From positions 35,646 through 99,645 of the forward strand of contig VFJQ01000001.1 of the NCBI GenBank assembly GCA_009885995.1: a stretch of DNA of 64,000 bases, read 5' to 3'. Shown piece by piece: positions 32,036-41,374 of this stretch (positions within the stretch are counted from its first letter, which is position 1; every line of letters begins with the position of its first letter). The translations under genes were made by a program, and so were the position numbers. This DNA is from Verrucomicrobiota bacterium. Its GTDB lineage: Bacteria; Verrucomicrobiota; Verrucomicrobiia; Chthoniobacterales; Chthoniobacteraceae. The notes below the pieces were generated by a model, which made no database searches, was not told where the DNA came from, and worked only from the letters and a program-made list of their open reading frames with translations.

Positions 32036-32083
32036 GGTGCGATGGATGGCACTCGCGGGCCTGCGGAGCTAGCAGGAAGTTTT

Positions 32084-32114
32084 ATGATTGCTTGCGATCA
32101 TAACGTGCTATCAT
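32084..32114. promoter_or_regulatory. Candidate DeoR operator: three 5-bp half-sites at exact 13-bp spacing
   Basis: ATGAT(32084)-TGCTTGCG-ATCAT(32097)-AACGTGCT-ATCAT(32110), just upstream of deoR. Confidence 0.7.
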
Positions 32115-32120
32115 CGCGCC

Positions 32121-33005
32121 GTGAAAGTGCCCATGCACGTGATCCAAGCCCGCCGGGAGAAGCTGGCGGCATTGATCGAGCAGCACCGCTTCCTCCCGGT
32201 GAAGGAGCTGTGCGCCCGGCTCGGAGTGTCGGAGGCGACTATGCGGCGGGACTTGGCCGCCTTGCACGGGGAGAAGCGGATCACTCGGACTTTCGGTGGA
32301 GCGCTCCGGGAGTTTAATGATCGGTTCCCTTCGTTTAGGGAGCGGCAAGGCCGGGCATCGCGCTCGAAGATGCGAGTGGCCAAGCTCGCCTTGAGCCTGC
32401 TCGAGCCGGGGAAGACCTATTTCTTCGATTCCGGCACCACGGTCTTCGCGATTGCCGAGGCGTTCCGCGAGGCACCGGTGACCCCGATCACGATCGTCAC
32501 TTCAAATCTGCCGGTCGGGGAGATGCTCGCGGCGATCCCGGGCGTGGAGGTCTTTCAACTCGCGGGGCAGCTCCTCCACCTCCAGTCCACGCTGCTAGGC
32601 GAGACGGCCAAGCGGAGCCTGGAGTTCTGGCGGTTCGACTGGGCGTTTCTCTCGACGGAAGGGATGATGCCGACCGGGCTGTGGAATTCGCAGATCGCCA
32701 TCGTCGAGCAGCAGAAGGCGGTGCTCCGCCGGAGCGCACGTCATGTCTTCTGTGTCGATGGATCGAAACTGAACCGGCAGGCTCCGCACTTCCTGATCGG
32801 GTGGAACCAACTCGACACGTTGCTCACGGATGTGCCGATGGAGAAGCTGCACGCGGCCGGCATTATGGTCGATCCCGCGCACTACCTTGGGCCGGAATCG
32901 GTCGTTTCAGATGAAGCAGAGGTCGCGCCCTCACCTGCCACAGAGCCGGCCCCGCCGGAGGGCAAAGCTACAGGCACGGGGGATCTGCCGGTTCATTTTT
33001 TATGA
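32121..33005 (+). CDS. DeoR/GlpR family transcriptional regulator of the BMC locus
   Basis: HTH FLPVKELCARLGVSEATMRRDLAALHGEKRITRTFGGAL; sensor domain DSGTTVFAIAEAF. Start at GTG 32121 or ATG 32133; the track start at 32088 lies inside the operator. Confidence 0.88.
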   Translation: MKVPMHVIQARREKLAALIEQHRFLPVKELCARLGVSEATMRRDLAALHGEKRITRTFGGALREFNDRFPSFRERQGRASRSKMRVAKLALSLLEPGKTYFFDSGTTVFAIAEAFREAPVTPITIVTSNLPVGEMLAAIPGVEVFQLAGQLLHLQSTLLGETAKRSLEFWRFDWAFLSTEGMMPTGLWNSQIAIVEQQKAVLRRSARHVFCVDGSKLNRQAPHFLIGWNQLDTLLTDVPMEKLHAAGIMVDPAHYLGPESVVSDEAEVAPSPATEPAPPEGKATGTGDLPVHFL

Positions 33006-33019
33006 TCGGAAATAATCAT
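33002..33019. promoter_or_regulatory. Candidate DeoR operator O1 upstream of pduL
   Basis: ATGAT-CGGAAATA-ATCAT, same 5-8-5 geometry; overlaps the deoR stop codon. Confidence 0.7.
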
Positions 33020-33028
33020 ATAAAGTCT

Positions 33029-33056
33029 TTGACGCGTAACGCGGAAGTTATATGAC
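33029..33056 (+). promoter_or_regulatory. Candidate sigma70-type promoter of BMC operon
   Basis: TTGACG (33029-33034), 16-bp spacer, TATGAC (33051-33056). Confidence 0.4.
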
Positions 33057-33069
33057 TGCGATCCGTCAT
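33052..33069. promoter_or_regulatory. Candidate DeoR operator O2 overlapping the -10
   Basis: ATGAC-TGCGATCC-GTCAT, same 5-8-5 geometry, exactly 50 bp centre-to-centre from O1. Confidence 0.65.
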
Positions 33070-33088
33070 TAAGTTTTCCCCACCTGAA

Positions 33089-33763
33089 ATGAGCGCCACT
33101 CTCACTCCCAGCCGAACGTCCGTCGAAGCTCTCGTCCGGTCGGCGCTGTTCAAGCAACTCGGAAAGCAAGCGCCAGCAGAGGCGGCTCCGACACTTGTGG
33201 TGAACAGCTCCGCACGGCACATGCACATCTCGCCGGAGAATCTGGAGACGCTTTTCGGGCCGGGTGCGAAGCTCACCGTCCACAAGTGGCTCTACCAGGA
33301 AGGGCAATTCGCATCGGAGCAGACGGTCACGCTCATCGGGCCGCGGCGTCGCGTCATTCCTAGCCTCCGGATCCTTGGCCCGTGCCGAAACCTCACGCAG
33401 ATCGAGCTGGCGCTCACCGATGCGGTGCAACTCGGGATGGACATCCCGGTGAAGATGTCGGGCGACATCAAGGGCACACCGGGCGGATACGTCATGGGGC
33501 CGAAAGGGATGCTGGAGATGAAGGACGGCATCATCCGCGCGGCGCGGCACGTCCACATGTCACCGGCTGACGCGAAATTTTACGGTGTGAAGCACCTCGA
33601 CCGCATCACGCTCAAGGTCACCTCGCCATTCTGCAACACCCGCTTCGACGAACTGATCGTGCGCGTCGATCCCAGCTTCAAACTCGAGGTCCACATGGAC
33701 ACCGACGAAGCGAACGCCTGCGACCTCGAACGCGCGACGAAGGTCGAACTGATTAAATCTTAA
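33089..33763 (+). CDS. pduL: PduL-type phosphate acyltransferase (BMC-associated)
   Basis: VNSSARHMHISPENLETLFG, RVIPSLRILGPCR, AARHVHMSPADAKFYGV; N-terminal amphipathic targeting helix. Confidence 0.93.
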   Translation: MSATLTPSRTSVEALVRSALFKQLGKQAPAEAAPTLVVNSSARHMHISPENLETLFGPGAKLTVHKWLYQEGQFASEQTVTLIGPRRRVIPSLRILGPCRNLTQIELALTDAVQLGMDIPVKMSGDIKGTPGGYVMGPKGMLEMKDGIIRAARHVHMSPADAKFYGVKHLDRITLKVTSPFCNTRFDELIVRVDPSFKLEVHMDTDEANACDLERATKVELIKS

Positions 33764-33786: not shown

Positions 33787-34056
33787 ATGAGCGAAGCAAT
33801 CGGACTAATCGAAACTCGCGGCTACGTGGGCCTGGTGGAAGCCAGTGACGCCATGGTCAAGGCCGCGAACGTGCAACTGGTCAAGTCAGTCCCAATCGGC
33901 GGCGGACTGATCACGACCATCGTCAAAGGCGATGTCGGCAGCGTCAAAGCCGCCGTCGAAGCGGGCAAGGAAGCCTCCAAGCGGATCGGCAACCTCGTCG
34001 CGTCGCACGTCATCGCGCGCCCGGGGCCTGACCTCCTCAAGTTCTTCACCTCCTAA
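33787..34056 (+). CDS. BMC-H shell protein 1
   Basis: [30 protein letters not shown]...[13 protein letters not shown], Pfam BMC-type hexamer. Confidence 0.95.
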
Positions 34057-34075
34057 CCTCTACCAACCTACTACC

Positions 34076-34381
34076 ATGCCTGGACAAGCACTCGGAATGA
34101 TCGAAACCAAAGGCCTCGTCGCCCAGTTCGAAGCAACTGACGCGATGATCAAAGCCGCCAACGTGGAACTCATCGGCTGGGAAAAAGTCGGCTCCGGATA
34201 CGTCAGCGTCTTCGTGCGCGGCGACGTCGCAGCGGTGAAAGCCGCGGTGGAAGCCGGCGCCACCGCCGCGAGCGCCATCGGCGAAGTGGTCGCCGTTCAT
34301 GTGATCCCGCGCCCGCACGACGACATCTACGGGCTCGGAAAATTCCTCGGCGGCAAACCGTCGAACGGCCCCACGAAGTAG
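34076..34381 (+). CDS. BMC-H shell protein 2
   Basis: [31 protein letters not shown]...VIPRPHDDI. Confidence 0.95.
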
Positions 34382-34397
34382 TCGCGCAGTCTCCGCG

Positions 34398-35582
34398 ATG
34401 ACCGCCAATAAGATCCTCGTCGCCAATATCGGCAGCACGTCGTTCAAGTTCCGCTTGATCGAGATGCCAGGCGAGCGCGTGCTCGCAAATGGCGGCGTGG
34501 AGCGGATCGGTGGCGCGGAATCGACTTACAAATACCAAGTCGGCAACGACGTGGAGCAGAAGGGCGTGGCGGCATTGCCCGACCACGGCGCGGCGATCTC
34601 GCTGGTCGAGAAAGCACTCGGCGGTTTCGGCGAACTCGCCGCAGTCGGCTTCAAACCGGTGATGGCGCGCGGCATCTCGGGCACGCAGGTGCTCGACGAG
34701 CCCGTGCTGCGCGCGATGGAGGAGATCAACACGCTCCTTCCCGCGCACAACCCGCCTTACGTCGCCGCGGTCCGCAGCTTCCACCGCTCGCACCCACAAC
34801 TGCCGTGCATCGGCACGTTCGAGACCGCGTTCTACGACGACGTGCCGGTAGAAAACGTGCGCTACCCGGTGCCGCGCGAGTGGGAGACGAAATACGGCAT
34901 CCGCCGCTACGGCTTCCACGGCGCGAGCCATCGGTTCGTCACGCAGCGTTGCGCCGAACTGCGCGGCACGGACCAGCTCCGCATCATCTCCTGCCACCTC
35001 GGCGGGAGCAGTTCGATCGCGTGCGTGCGCAATGGCAAGGCCATCGATTCGAGTTGGGGCATGACCCCGCAGAGCGGCCTGCCGCAGAACAATCGCGTGG
35101 GCGACTTCGATGTCTTCGCTCTCATCTACCTCGCTCGCGATCTTGGCCTCGGCATCGACGCCGTCGAAAAAGCGCTCACCTCGCAGTCCGGCCTCAAAGG
35201 CCTCTCCGGCCTCGCAACCGGCGACGTGCGCGACTTGCTCGAAGCATCCGCGAAAGGCAACACCGATGCGTCCATCGCACTCGATGTCTTCGTCGCCGCG
35301 ATCCGCAAATACATCGGCCAATTCCTCGTCGAGCTGAACGGCGCTGACGTGCTCATCTTCACCGCCGGCATTGCGGAGAACAACCCGATGCTCCGCGAGA
35401 AAATCTGCGCGAACCTCGACTTCTGCGGCCTCGAACTCGACCGCGACGCGAACAACCACACGCGCGCCAACGAAGCCATCATCTCCACGCCGCGCTCGAA
35501 AATCGAAGTGCGCGTCATCCCCACCAACGAAGAACTCATCATCGCCCGCAACGCGTGGGCCAAGCTTTCAACCCTCAACTAA
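34398..35582 (+). CDS. ackA: Acetate/propionate kinase
   Basis: ILVANIGSTSFKFRLIEMPGE, YGFHGASHRFV, LGGSSSIACVRNGKAIDSSWGMTPQSGLPQ. Confidence 0.93.
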   Translation: MTANKILVANIGSTSFKFRLIEMPGERVLANGGVERIGGAESTYKYQVGNDVEQKGVAALPDHGAAISLVEKALGGFGELAAVGFKPVMARGISGTQVLDEPVLRAMEEINTLLPAHNPPYVAAVRSFHRSHPQLPCIGTFETAFYDDVPVENVRYPVPREWETKYGIRRYGFHGASHRFVTQRCAELRGTDQLRIISCHLGGSSSIACVRNGKAIDSSWGMTPQSGLPQNNRVGDFDVFALIYLARDLGLGIDAVEKALTSQSGLKGLSGLATGDVRDLLEASAKGNTDASIALDVFVAAIRKYIGQFLVELNGADVLIFTAGIAENNPMLREKICANLDFCGLELDRDANNHTRANEAIISTPRSKIEVRVIPTNEELIIARNAWAKLSTLN

Positions 35583-35599
35583 CCCAACAACCAAAACCT

Positions 35600-35881
35600 A
35601 TGGCACAACAAGCAATCGGAATGATCGAAACACGCGGCCTCGTCGCACTCGTCGAGGCAACTGACGCGATGCTCAAATCGGCCAACGTCGAACTCGTCGG
35701 CCCCATCACCCAGGTCGGCAACGCGATGGTGACCGTCTGCGTCACCGGCGACGTCGCTGCCGTCAAAGCCGCGACCGAAGCCGGCCGCAATGCCGCGCAG
35801 TCACTTGGCGAAATCGTCAGCGTCAGCGTCATCGCGCGCCCGCACAACGACCTCGGCGCAGTCCTGCCGAAGGCGAAGTAA
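35600..35881 (+). CDS. BMC-H shell protein 3
   Basis: QAIGMIETRGLVALVEATDAMLKSANVELVG...VIARPHNDL. Confidence 0.95.
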   Translation: MAQQAIGMIETRGLVALVEATDAMLKSANVELVGPITQVGNAMVTVCVTGDVAAVKAATEAGRNAAQSLGEIVSVSVIARPHNDLGAVLPKAK

Positions 35882-35888
35882 TCGCAAC

Positions 35889-36197
35889 ATGATCCTCGCC
35901 CGGGTCGAAGGCAGCGTCGTTGCGACGAAGAAGAACACGAAGATGACGGGGAATAAATTCCTCCTCGTCCGTCCGCTCGTGATCGACTCCGCGGACGCGA
36001 AAACGTGGAAGCCCGGCGTGACCACGCTCGTGGCCGTGGACAGCCTCGGCGCGGGTGAAGGTGAGATCGTCCTCGTCGTCCAGGGCAGCTCCGCGCGCCT
36101 CGCTGCCGACGACAAGGACTCGCCCGTCGATGCCGTCGTGATCGGCCTCGTGGACACGGTCGATATCGGAAAACACATCCTCTACAAGGCGCACTAA
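35889..36197 (+). CDS. BMC-P (EutN/CcmL) vertex protein 1
   Basis: MILARVEGSVVATKKNTKMTGNKFLLVRPL...AVDSLGAGEGEIVLVVQGSSAR. Confidence 0.93.
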   Translation: MILARVEGSVVATKKNTKMTGNKFLLVRPLVIDSADAKTWKPGVTTLVAVDSLGAGEGEIVLVVQGSSARLAADDKDSPVDAVVIGLVDTVDIGKHILYKAH

Positions 36198-36209
36198 CCG
36201 CATACTTAA

Positions 36210-37640
36210 ATGGCAACGTTGGACGAAAGAATCGTATCGAGAGTCGTGAGCGAAGTGCTCGCGCGTTTGCAGTCGCAGACCAAGGTCGCGTCGTCGCGGC
36301 AGAGCAGCTTCGGCGTTTACGACAAGATGGAAGACGCGTGCGAAGCCGCGCACAGCTCGTTTGAAAAGCTGCGCAACCTCGGCGTGAACGCCCGCAAGCA
36401 GGCGATCAACGTCATCCGCCGCATGTGCGTCGCGAAGGCGAAGGAGTGGGGCGAGATCGAATTCGCGGAGACAAAGATCGGCCGACTCGACCACAAGATC
36501 GAGAAGCTCAAGATTTGTGGAGACCTCGTGCCGGGCGTCGAATTCATGGAGCGCCACGCATTCAGCGGCGACTTCGGCCTGACCGTGATCGACTTCGCGC
36601 CGTGGGGCGTCATCGGCGCGGTGACGCCTTCGACGCACAGCGTCCCGACGCTCACCGGCAACGCGATCAACATGATCGCATCGGGCAACGCCGCTGTCTT
36701 CAACACGCACCCGGCCGCCGCGGGTTGCGCCGCGCTCGCGATCCGCAGCTACAACGAAGGCATCTTCCAGGAGATCGGCATCAGCGACCTGCTCACCACG
36801 GTGGCGAAGCCGACGCTCGAAACCTTCGACACGATGTGCAAGCACGCGAAGGTGAAGCTGCTCTGCGTCACCGGCGGCCCCGCGGTCGTCGCCGCGGCGA
36901 TGAAAACCGGCAAGCGCGCCGTCTGCGCGGGACCAGGGAATCCGCCGGTCGTCGTCGATGAAACCGCCGACCTCGCCAACGCCGCGAAGTGCATCATCCA
37001 GGGCGCGAGCTACGACAACAACCTGCTCTGCATCGGCGAGAAGGAAGTGTTCGTCGTCGAGAGCGTGGCTGACAAACTTTTGGCCGAGCTGAAGAAAGCC
37101 GGCGCCGTGCAACTCGACGCGAAGCAGATCGAGGCGCTCGCGGAGAAAGCGTTCGTGTTCCCGCAGGGCAAAGGCGCGGGCTGCCCGCATCCGGTCGTGA
37201 ATCGCGACCTCGTCGGACGCGACGCCGCAGTGCTCGCGAGAGCGATCGGCCTCAGCGTGCCGCCCGCGACGCAGCTCCTCTTCGGCGAGACGAAGGAAGA
37301 TCACATCTTCGTCGATGAAGAGCAGATGATGCCCTTCATCCCGATCGTGCGCGTCGCGAATGTGGACGAGGGCATCGCCGCCGCGATCCGCGCCGAGCAC
37401 AATTACAAACACACGGCGATCATGCACTCCACGAACATCAAGGCGCTCACGAAAATGGCGCAGGTCGTGGACACCACGCTCTTCATCAAGAACGGCCCGT
37501 GCATGACCGGCCTCGGCCTCGGCGGCGAAGGTTTCCTCAGCTTCTCCGTCGCCACGCCGACCGGCGAAGGCGTGACCACCCCGATGACGTTCACCCGCTC
37601 ACGCCGCTGCGTGATGGTCGAGGAACTCAACCTGTTCTAA
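36210..37640 (+). CDS. BMC-associated CoA-acylating aldehyde dehydrogenase
   Basis: GVIGAVTPSTHSVPTLTGNAINMIASGN, catalytic NNLLCIGEKEV; N-term helix LDERIVSRVVSEVLARLQ resembles an encapsulation peptide. Confidence 0.92.
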   Translation: MATLDERIVSRVVSEVLARLQSQTKVASSRQSSFGVYDKMEDACEAAHSSFEKLRNLGVNARKQAINVIRRMCVAKAKEWGEIEFAETKIGRLDHKIEKLKICGDLVPGVEFMERHAFSGDFGLTVIDFAPWGVIGAVTPSTHSVPTLTGNAINMIASGNAAVFNTHPAAAGCAALAIRSYNEGIFQEIGISDLLTTVAKPTLETFDTMCKHAKVKLLCVTGGPAVVAAAMKTGKRAVCAGPGNPPVVVDETADLANAAKCIIQGASYDNNLLCIGEKEVFVVESVADKLLAELKKAGAVQLDAKQIEALAEKAFVFPQGKGAGCPHPVVNRDLVGRDAAVLARAIGLSVPPATQLLFGETKEDHIFVDEEQMMPFIPIVRVANVDEGIAAAIRAEHNYKHTAIMHSTNIKALTKMAQVVDTTLFIKNGPCMTGLGLGGEGFLSFSVATPTGEGVTTPMTFTRSRRCVMVEELNLF

Positions 37641-37904
37641 ATGCGCCTCGCCACGATCCACGGCTACGCCACTTCGACGGTCAAGCACCGCAGCCTGGAA
37701 GGCTGGCGCTTGCTGATCGCGATACCGGAGAGCCCGGATCTCGCGCCACAAATCGTGCTCGATTCGCTCGGTGCCGGCATCGGTCAGCGCGTGCTGATCT
37801 CCAGCGATGGCAGCGAAGCGCGAAAGATGGTGAAAGACGAACGCAGCCCCGCGCGCTGGACCGTGATGGGCATCATCGATCCGGAAAGGGATCTCGCGAT
37901 ATGA
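37641..37904 (+). CDS. BMC-P (EutN/CcmL) vertex protein 2
   Basis: MRLATIHGYATSTVKHRSLEGWRLLIAIPE...VLDSLGAGIGQRVLISSDGSEAR. Confidence 0.9.
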   Translation: MRLATIHGYATSTVKHRSLEGWRLLIAIPESPDLAPQIVLDSLGAGIGQRVLISSDGSEARKMVKDERSPARWTVMGIIDPERDLAI

Positions 37905-38179
37905 GGATGGGCACCGTCATCGGTCGCGTGACTCTTTCCGTGCGCCACAAGCGCTACTCCGGCGAGCGCCTGCTGCTCACGTTGCCGTGGAGGACCGACA
38001 CCTTCAAAGGCGTGGAGAAGCACGACCCGGCCATCGTCGTTTACGACCAACTCGGCGCGGGCGTCGGCCAGCACATCGCCATCAGCGAAGGCCGCGAAGC
38101 CGCCTGCCCTTTCCCGACCCCGACACCCGTGGACGCCTACTGCGCCGCGCTCGTCGATGAACACTTTTACAAAGAATAA
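37901..38179 (+). CDS. BMC-P (EutN/CcmL) vertex protein 3
   Basis: MGTVIGRVTLSVRHKRYSGERLLLTLPW...VYDQLGAGVGQHIAISEGREAA; overlaps upstream stop. Confidence 0.9.
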   Translation: MRMGTVIGRVTLSVRHKRYSGERLLLTLPWRTDTFKGVEKHDPAIVVYDQLGAGVGQHIAISEGREAACPFPTPTPVDAYCAALVDEHFYKE

Positions 38180-38182
38180 TCT

Positions 38183-39256
38183 ATGACCCTGATCGCACAA
38201 AAAGAAGCCGCAGAGATCGTGAAGACCGGCGCAAAAGAGTTCCGCCAAAACAGCGAAACGCGCCTCACACCCGGCGCGAAAGACATCCTCAACGACGCTG
38301 GCGTGAAGATCGTCTTCGACGCGAGCGCCGCCCCCGCTGCTGCGGCCGCCGCATCGTCGCAAGGCTACGCACCCGTGGCCGCGCCGGCGCCTTACAGCCC
38401 GGATGACGTCCGCCTCTTCAACTCGAAGGAAGCGAACGAAATCAAAGAACAGATCTGCGACATCGGTCGCCGCATCTGGGCGCGCGAATACTGCGACGGC
38501 AACGGCGGCAACATCTCCGCTCGCCTCGCGCCGGATCGCTTCATCTGCACGCCGACCGGCGTGAGCAAAGGGTTCATGAAGCCCGACATGATGTGCATGG
38601 TCGATGGCAAGGGCACGCAACTCGGCGGCACGTGGAAGCGCTCCAGCGAGATCACCACGCACATGGCCATCTTCCACTCGACGCCGGAAGCGATGAGCGT
38701 CTGCCACGCGCATCCGTGCCACGCCGGCGCGTTCGCGATCAAGGGCATGCAACCGCCGCCACGCCTCATCCCCGAGCTGGAAGTGTTCGTCGGCACCGTC
38801 GCCTACACGCCTTACAAGACGCCGGGCTCGCCGGAAATCGCCGCGGAGATTTTCCCGCTCGCGCCGAAGCACCAGTCCATCCTCATGGGCAACCACGGCG
38901 TCATCTGCTGGGGCAAGTCGGTCGAGGACGCGTATTTCAAAATGGAGATCACCGACGCGTATTGCCGCACGGTCATTCTCGCGCAGGCCATCCCCGGCAG
39001 CGCGTCGATCCCATGCGACAAGCTGCCCGAACTGCTCAACATCAAGAGAACGCTCGGCCTGCCCGACGACCGCTACGACCTCAAGCCCGCGGGCCTGTGC
39101 GAAGTCGATCCGTGGCAGCAGATGTGCGGTTCGCACGGCTGCTCGTCGCCGGTCACGCCCTTCAATCCGATGACCAACGACAACACGAGCGACGCCGACA
39201 TCGAAGCGCTCGTGCAGAAGCTGACCGACGAAATCGTCGCAAAGCTCGGGAAATGA
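38183..39256 (+). CDS. Class II aldolase (L-fuculose/L-rhamnulose-phosphate aldolase-like) with BMC tags
   Basis: DGNGGNISARLAPDRFICTPTGVSKGFM, MAIFHSTPEAMSVCHAHPCHAGAF; extra N-terminal ~75 aa region and C-terminal helix. Confidence 0.9.
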   Translation: MTLIAQKEAAEIVKTGAKEFRQNSETRLTPGAKDILNDAGVKIVFDASAAPAAAAAASSQGYAPVAAPAPYSPDDVRLFNSKEANEIKEQICDIGRRIWAREYCDGNGGNISARLAPDRFICTPTGVSKGFMKPDMMCMVDGKGTQLGGTWKRSSEITTHMAIFHSTPEAMSVCHAHPCHAGAFAIKGMQPPPRLIPELEVFVGTVAYTPYKTPGSPEIAAEIFPLAPKHQSILMGNHGVICWGKSVEDAYFKMEITDAYCRTVILAQAIPGSASIPCDKLPELLNIKRTLGLPDDRYDLKPAGLCEVDPWQQMCGSHGCSSPVTPFNPMTNDNTSDADIEALVQKLTDEIVAKLGK

Positions 39257-39273
39257 GCACGCTGAGTTGCGTT

Positions 39274-39472
39274 TTGCCCCGGAGGGGCAGCCAGAGATTA
39301 GCCCCGGGTGAAACCCGGGGTATCCCAGGCAAGACGGATGCACCCCGGACGGGGTGCGAGGAATCACTGACACAGGCGACGTTTCCTTCCACCCCGTCCG
39401 GGGTGGATACGTTGGTGGGCGTGAACCGGGGGTGTTACCCCCGGCTAATTTCTGGCTGCCCCTCCGGGGCAA
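39274..39472. repeat. ~199 bp inverted pair of ~92-bp multi-hairpin repeat inside the BMC operon
   Basis: Left TTGCCCCGGAGGGGCAGCCAGAGATTAGCC..., reverse complement of right TTGCCCCGGAGGGGCAGCCAGAAATTAGCC...; internal hairpins CCCCGGGTGAAACCCGGGG, CCGGGGGTGTTACCCCCGG and CACCCCGGACGGGGTG. Confidence 0.85.
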
Positions 39473-39509
39473 TTCGCTCGCGCCTTTCGTGGGCCAACCC
39501 AAACTCACC

Positions 39510-40826
39510 ATGTCTTTAGTCGACCAAGTCAGACTCGCAGGCGTCGTCGGCGCGGGCGGCGGCGGATTTCCCGCGCACGTGAAGCTCGGCTCGAAAGCCG
39601 AGATCATCATCGCCAACGGCGCCGAGTGCGAACCGCTGCTGCACAAGGACGCAGCGGTGATGGAACACTACGCGGCGGATGTCGTGCGTGGCGTCGAACT
39701 CTGCATGGCTACGACCGGCGCGAGCGACGGCGTTATCGGCATCAAGGCGAAGAAAAAGAAAGCGGTCGAAGCGATCGAGGACGCCTGCCGCGGGACGCGT
39801 GTGCGCGTGCAACTCCTCGGCGACTTCTATCCCGCGGGCGACGAATACGACCTCGTCTATACCGTCACCGGGAAACTCATCCCGCCCGCCGGCCTGCCTA
39901 TCCACGTCGGCGCAATCGTCAGCAACGTCGAGACCCTCGTGAACATCGCGCAGGCCGTCGATGGCAAGCCGGTCACGCACAAGACCATCACCATCGCCGG
40001 CGCCGTCGCCGAGCCGGTGACGCTCACCGTGCCCATTGGCATTAGCTTCCGCGAATGCATCGCGGCAGCAGGTGGCGCGACTTGCGACGATCCCGTGATG
40101 GCCATCGGCGGGCTGATGATGGGTGAGACGACCGACAATCTCGACGCGCCCGTCATCAAGACGAGCACTGGGGCGATCATCCTCGCGCGCACGCATCACG
40201 TGATGGAGAAGAAGTTCAAACCCGCCAAGGTGCAGGCTTCGATCGGCAAGTCCGCGTGCGACCAGTGCCGCTACTGCACCGAGTTCTGCCCGCGCTTTCT
40301 TCTCGGCTATCAAGTGGAGCCGCACCAGGTCATGCGCACGCTCGCCTTCACCGGCACAGGCGCGGAGCGGTTCAACGAATGGGCCGCGCTCTGCTGCTCG
40401 TGCGGCCTCTGCACGCTCTACGCCTGCCCGGAAGAGCTGTATCCGAAGGAAGCCTGCGACGACTCGAAAGCCATCCTGCGGAAGCAGAACTTCAAGTGGA
40501 CCGGAAAGACCGACATCAAAGTCCATCCGATGCGCGATGGCCGACACGTGCCGATCAAGACGCTGATGAAGAAGATGCACGTCGAGCAATACGACAACCC
40601 CGCGCCACTTCGCGCCGGCATCGTCGAGACGCGGCAGCTCGTCCTCCCGCTCAAGCAAAGCGCCGGCGGCCCGACCATCCCGCTCGTGAAGGTCGGCGAC
40701 ACCGTGAAAGCCGGCCAGCCCATCTCCGAGCCCGCGCCGAACGCCCTTGGCGCCATCATCCACGCGCCCTTCGCCGCCAAGGTCACCGCCCTCGCGGACG
40801 ACCGCATCACCTTGACCAAGTCATGA
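39510..40826 (+). CDS. PduS-like RnfC-family Fe-S/flavin electron-transfer protein
   Basis: VRLAGVVGAGGGGFPAHVKLGSKAEIIIANGAECEPLLHKD; 4Fe-4S motifs CDQCRYCTEFCP and CCSCGLCTLYACP. Track start 39354 is an artefact of the repeat. Confidence 0.9.
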   Translation: MSLVDQVRLAGVVGAGGGGFPAHVKLGSKAEIIIANGAECEPLLHKDAAVMEHYAADVVRGVELCMATTGASDGVIGIKAKKKKAVEAIEDACRGTRVRVQLLGDFYPAGDEYDLVYTVTGKLIPPAGLPIHVGAIVSNVETLVNIAQAVDGKPVTHKTITIAGAVAEPVTLTVPIGISFRECIAAAGGATCDDPVMAIGGLMMGETTDNLDAPVIKTSTGAIILARTHHVMEKKFKPAKVQASIGKSACDQCRYCTEFCPRFLLGYQVEPHQVMRTLAFTGTGAERFNEWAALCCSCGLCTLYACPEELYPKEACDDSKAILRKQNFKWTGKTDIKVHPMRDGRHVPIKTLMKKMHVEQYDNPAPLRAGIVETRQLVLPLKQSAGGPTIPLVKVGDTVKAGQPISEPAPNALGAIIHAPFAAKVTALADDRITLTKS

Positions 40827-41374
40827 AAGAAAAGTCCGTAGGCCTCATCGAACTCTCCAGCATCGCCGCCGGTTTCTCCGTCGCCGATTCCGCGCTGAAG
40901 GCGGGCAACGTGAAGCTGATGCTCTCGCGCTCCATCTGCTCGGGCAAATACATGATCCTCATCGCCGGCGACACCGCGAGCGTCGAGGCCGCCATCGCCA
41001 CCGGCAATGAAACCGCCGGCGGTTGCCTCATCGACCACATCGTCATCGCGAACCTGCACCCCGACGTGCTCAGCGCGATCGGCCGCACCTCGCCCGTCGA
41101 GCCCACCGGCGCGCTCGGCATCTTCGAGAGCTTCAATGTCGCCACGCTCATCAAAGCCGCCGACGCCGCCGCGAAGGCCGCCGACGTGCAACTCCTCGAA
41201 GTCCGCCTCGCCATGGCCCTCGGCGGAAAAGCCTTCTGCACCCTCACCGGCGACGTGAGCTCAGTCCAGGCCGCCGTCGCCGCCGGCCGCGCCGTCATCG
41301 CCGAAGCCGGCGTCCTCGTGAACGCCGTCGTGATCCCGCGTCCGCACCCGGACGTGTATCGCGAGGTGATCTGA
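40823..41374 (+). CDS. PduT-like BMC-T trimeric shell protein
   Basis: Two tandem BMC domains (SVGLIELSSIAAGFSVADSALKAGNV; GALGIFESFNVATLIKAADAAAKAADV); conserved Cys in LSRSICSGKYMIL aligns with the PduT Fe-S cysteine region. Confidence 0.9.
   Translation: MKEKSVGLIELSSIAAGFSVADSALKAGNVKLMLSRSICSGKYMILIAGDTASVEAAIATGNETAGGCLIDHIVIANLHPDVLSAIGRTSPVEPTGALGIFESFNVATLIKAADAAAKAADVQLLEVRLAMALGGKAFCTLTGDVSSVQAAVAAGRAVIAEAGVLVNAVVIPRPHPDVYREVI

Follow-up and report, generated by a model that had tools for sequence, protein, structure and literature searches.

Through which DNA sites might a DeoR-family regulator control the microcompartment operon that follows its gene? The question is raised by a 64-kb stretch of verrucomicrobial DNA (the window, taken at its full length), in which a deoR gene is followed by pduL and a set of microcompartment genes. 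The DeoR protein, whose N-terminus (MKVPMHV...) reflects a start kept in the ortholog comparison, carries an HTH_DeoR domain (PF08220, 2.1e-15) and a DeoRC sensor domain (PF00455, 5.7e-32), both past the Pfam cut-off. The genes downstream were identified by Pfam and NCBIfam matches, the last ones from the open reading frame list only. They include pduL, BMC shell genes, acetate kinase, aldehyde dehydrogenase and class II aldolase, which together with the DeoR regulator give the gene content of the L-fucose/L-rhamnose microcompartment locus of Planctomycetes and Verrucomicrobia (PVM; PMC4207490). The features of the locus are as follows.

32084 to 32101, no strand: predicted operator of deoR itself, 18-bp core ATGATTGCTTGCGATCAT (26-bp form 32080-32105; 31.0 bits)
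32121 to 33005, forward strand: deoR, DeoR-family repressor gene (GTG start at 32121, TGA stop at 33003-33005)
32317 to 32334, no strand: candidate intragenic auxiliary operator, in the deoR codons for FNDRFPSFR (26-bp form 32313-32338; 19.6 bits)
33002 to 33019, no strand: site 1, ATGAT-CGGAAATA-ATCAT, over the deoR stop codon (26-bp form 32998-33023; 34.7 bits)
33029 to 33034, forward strand: predicted -35 element TTGACG of the microcompartment promoter, conserved across loci
33051 to 33056, forward strand: predicted -10 element TATGAC, almost wholly within site 2, with TATGAY kept at the same place
33052 to 33069, no strand: site 2, ATGAC-TGCGATCC-GTCAT, predicted main operator of the microcompartment operon (26-bp form 33048-33073; 26.9 bits)
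33089 to 33763, forward strand: pduL, phosphate propanoyltransferase, first gene of the operon (Pfam PTAC, 2.4e-66)
33787 to 41374 (3' end approximate), forward strand: remainder of the PVM-type operon, encoding BMC shell proteins, acetate kinase, EutN/CcmL, aldehyde dehydrogenase, class II aldolase and an RnfC-like protein

A first-pass annotation of this DNA had pointed to the two palindromes that we call sites 1 and 2, with centres 50 bp apart, and to a geometry shared with the deoR operator. Letters, coordinates and spacing were exact, and the likeness to the deoR operator at 32084-32101 was confirmed. Bare 5-8-5 symmetry was rejected as evidence, as the window holds 116 exact inverted repeats of this form. 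The word ATGAYN8RTCAT was more telling: it occurs three times in the window, always inside the same 1 kb, against 0.08 expected, and seven times in the whole 5.94-Mb genome. We then scored the window with a matrix derived from 77 distinct sites lying 5' of deoR or pduL, taken from other genomes only, the window being excluded along with any site-1 or intragenic copy from relatives having both. The DeoR homologs behind it were gathered from the family, the phylum, the genome collection and the Planctomycetota. The matrix (26.7 bits of information) describes a 26-bp palindrome, TTATATGATTGANNTCAATCATATAA, with inner arms TGA..TCA, so that the 18-bp extent first proposed was too short. Its four best matches in the window were site 1, the deoR operator, site 2 and a copy inside deoR that had been overlooked (34.7, 31.0, 26.9 and 19.6 bits), all within 1 kb, and the fifth scored 2.2 bits. 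In 3.8 million simulated bases no position scored as high as any of the three ATGAYN8RTCAT sites, and by both word count and matrix the palindromes are not chance.

Relatives of the locus were found by DeoR homolog search in Chthoniobacteraceae and other Verrucomicrobiota. An operator (score of at least 12 of 16, attained by 2.6% of shuffles) lies about 40 bp 5' of deoR in 26 of the 28 pduL loci with upstream sequence and in 34 of 51 loci lacking pduL; a strong operator precedes pduL in 28 of 30 loci. The 26-bp operator is kept 5' of the repressor gene across the Verrucomicrobiota, and conserved copies stand both at the regulator's own gene and at its presumed target operon, as comparative sequence establishes. 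Where pduL is lacking, the genes that follow deoR include some for an FGGY kinase, for class II aldolases and for a protein with a weak fucose-isomerase C-terminal match. The operator accompanies deoR despite these changed neighbours, which ties it to the regulator and not to the microcompartment, while the neighbours themselves point to rhamnose or fucose as the pathway. Within the window's own genome, relaxed patterns gave no more than control-level matches outside the locus; a wider regulon there was accordingly rejected, and the regulator looks local. We infer the pairing of DeoR with the operator from their co-inheritance. As this pairing rests on co-occurrence, another transcription factor might bind the palindromes, but we consider this highly improbable given that the site tracks deoR across differing downstream genes and is limited to this locus in its own genome. 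The palindromes are very probably operators of the adjacent DeoR repressor, which would act as a local regulator of L-rhamnose/L-fucose breakdown.

Two side observations concern deoR itself. A possible -10 element, TATCAT, lies in the stretch 32109-32121 of the window and ends 6 bp 5' of the deoR start codon, as in several relatives, and from its position close to the start codon the deoR mRNA may be leaderless. The same deoR and operator also occur in L165, labelled Methylococcaceae, a label that probably reflects a binning error or transfer.

The promoter proposed in the first pass, TTGACG and TATGAC separated by 16 bp, is real by its conservation among related loci. A script found TTGAC exactly 16 bp 5' of an operator-embedded TATGAN in 21 of 28 loci, a count in which, for L090, L113 and the window, it had settled on the operator lying upstream; in these three the same promoter was read by eye at the downstream operator. 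The arrangement TTGACS-N16-TATGAY, with the -10 within the operator, is thereby conserved in most related loci. The microcompartment promoter was missed by a promoter scan, whose rule demands T as the last -10 base. That the second palindrome covers the -10 was borne out (TATGAC at 33051-33056, site 2 at 33052-33069), and this overlap too is established by sequence comparison. The idea that the pair brackets the promoter was only loosely correct: the promoter does lie between and under the sites, but site 1 sits over the deoR stop codon, 5' of the -35. In the operators on the deoR side, TTGA is followed by C in 79% of cases, against 10% at pduL. There TTGAC may double as a -35 element, although matches to a downstream -10 are uneven.

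With the -10 embedded in the operator, its occlusion is the simplest mechanism. When no inducer is present, DeoR would sit on site 2, cover the pduL -10 and keep RNA polymerase off; it would also bind 5' of its own gene, giving autoregulation. Judged from the sequence, promoter-occlusion repression by DeoR together with autoregulation is well supported. Site 1 and the intragenic operator would be auxiliary, most likely raising repressor occupancy by cooperative binding or looping, and a sugar phosphate of the pathway would probably release DeoR. Repression, the inducer, its phosphorylation and any loop are what we infer for the working of the switch.

The intragenic match raised the question of whether it is an operator or a mere by-product of the conserved peptide FNDRFPSF, with which part of the match necessarily comes. 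Site scores were compared with those of synonymous recodings drawn by local codon use. Synonymous codon choice favoured the operator in the window (p=0.006) and in 13 further operon loci (L089-L095, L097, L105-L108 and L113; p≤0.055), values that are singly modest and, the loci being related, must not be multiplied. The bias was absent in the orphan deoR genes L096, L098, L101 and L104, and also in several operon loci, e.g. L100, L102, L103 and L109; in this comparison the DeoR tree requires several changes for either label. Across 13 loci, in which deoR was divided into 250 windows of nine codons, the FNDRFPSFR stretch ranks top on two counts, synonymous identity (z=2.9) and A/T third bases (z=4.9), whereas in loci that lack the intragenic site its synonymous identity is unremarkable and its A/T third bases reach z of about 2. 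Such leaning of the codons in the window and 13 operon loci, but not in the orphans, makes a by-product unlikely. The codon bias, again brought out by comparative sequence, supports the intragenic match as a putative operator. Its distance from the deoR operator drifts over 233-241 bp, through most of one helical turn; helical-phase conservation between these two sites was rejected, no phase constraint being seen.

Site 1 posed a different problem. In the window and in L089, L091-L095 and L097, the part of the site free of coding constraint (outside the Leu-stop codons) is conserved in all eight loci (p≤0.009 each). Eleven further loci have no such match over the deoR stop codon; among relatives the site is degenerate in several and missing in many, and many that share the promoter have an operator at the -10 alone. 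The first-pass annotation had equated the 50-bp spacing with about five helical turns on one DNA face and had proposed repression by a looped pair of DeoR dimers. The 50 bp hold, but at 10.5 bp per turn they make 4.76 turns, about a quarter turn off, and relatives with both sites have centre spacings of 60, 61 (five loci) or 63 bp. Of the looped pair, the neighbouring DeoR operators and repression stand, the loop much less so. A loop between sites 1 and 2 is possible by analogy: looping is reported both for E. coli DeoR, between its operators, and for lambda CI, between single operators 5-6 turns apart (PMC8053113). The difference between 50 bp in the window and mostly 61 bp in relatives, about one helical turn, is suggestive; however, these roughly 11 bp could stem from one evolutionary event, the spacings do not seem to keep a whole or fixed number of turns (4.76, 5.81 and 6.0 turns for 50, 61 and 63 bp), and site 1 is absent from many relatives. 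We therefore find it rather doubtful that sites 1 and 2, each bound by a DeoR dimer, are joined in a short loop that encloses the promoter and depends on helical phase.

Site 1 could instead act without a loop, as a roadblock to read-through from deoR, as an occupancy booster, or as a remnant of an older layout that had the operator and -10 placed on the deoR stop codon. The Opitutae relatives L114, L116 and L120 have just this layout: in them pduL is preceded by a single operator, which covers the deoR stop codon and contains the -10, and TTGAC stands 16 bp upstream, which places the -35 within the coding tail of deoR. The window copy of site 1 lacks a -35, and copies are degenerate in several relatives, both of which favour this reading. 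On the other hand, site 1 is the top-scoring operator of the window (34.7 bits) and shows no decay, which speaks against a remnant. We regard a role without a loop as conceivable, on a tentative footing. L090 and L113, the closest relatives of the window, have a deoR-pduL gap of 311-312 bp that holds two operators at a distance of 222-223 bp, and the stop-codon site is absent. As for the locus as a whole, there is close to an even chance that the four sites within 1 kb would form one multi-site repression complex on an organelle operon, with operators written into the repressor's synonymous codons and stop codon, the codon-embedded one being kept mainly where deoR adjoins the operon.

In the lac and gal systems, auxiliary operators, some of them inside coding sequence, reinforce the main operator. 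The arrangement proposed here is similar, but the repressor families are unrelated. Closer in family is E. coli DeoR with the O1, O2 and OE operators of the deo operon, where looping between distant operators improves repression (PMC8053113, PMC4217526). Those operators are 300-600 bp apart and deoR does not adjoin the operon, whereas in the window four sites lie within 1 kb, one of them intragenic. DeoR-type RhaR regulators of four taxonomic groups share family and pathway, but the motifs predicted for them are direct repeats, imperfect and with a period of 10-11 bp (PMC3870299), unlike the 26-bp inverted repeat of the window. The nearest counterpart is PvmA of Planctopirus limnophila, a putative DeoR regulator with a promoter predicted before pvmB (PMC11958385); as in the window, the DeoR-family gene directly precedes the operon and an intergenic promoter precedes the second gene (PMC11958385, PMC4207490). 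A reporter with PvmA and its promoters was rhamnose-inducible, and its leaky expression in E. coli was taken as a sign of repression (PMC11958385), as expected of a repressor. Relief by a sugar-derived ligand is thus the natural reading for the window by analogy with this system. The text of that paper mentions neither an operator nor a binding site (PMC11958385), and in the planctomycetal PVM loci that we examined the palindrome was not found, so the comparison with PvmA is one of role and not of operator. In L173-L197, PVM loci of Planctomycetota, two TGATTGA-type half-sites in direct orientation, spaced by about 43 bp, often lie 5' of deoR.

In the open-licence literature we found no operator for this type of regulator, though an earlier description elsewhere is possible; regulation of PVM loci was named there just as 'a DeoR-family regulator'. 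The operators seem newly defined: the mechanism is ordinary and the kind of switch already known, while the binding sites were apparently undescribed before. The repressor of the sugar-degrading PVM microcompartment of Verrucomicrobiota is now given an operator, a promoter and a likely logic. With the consensus, the regulon can be searched phylum-wide, and a compact inducible promoter becomes available. What auxiliary operators do in DeoR-family autoregulation can be tested directly on the copies that lie in the codons and over the stop codon.
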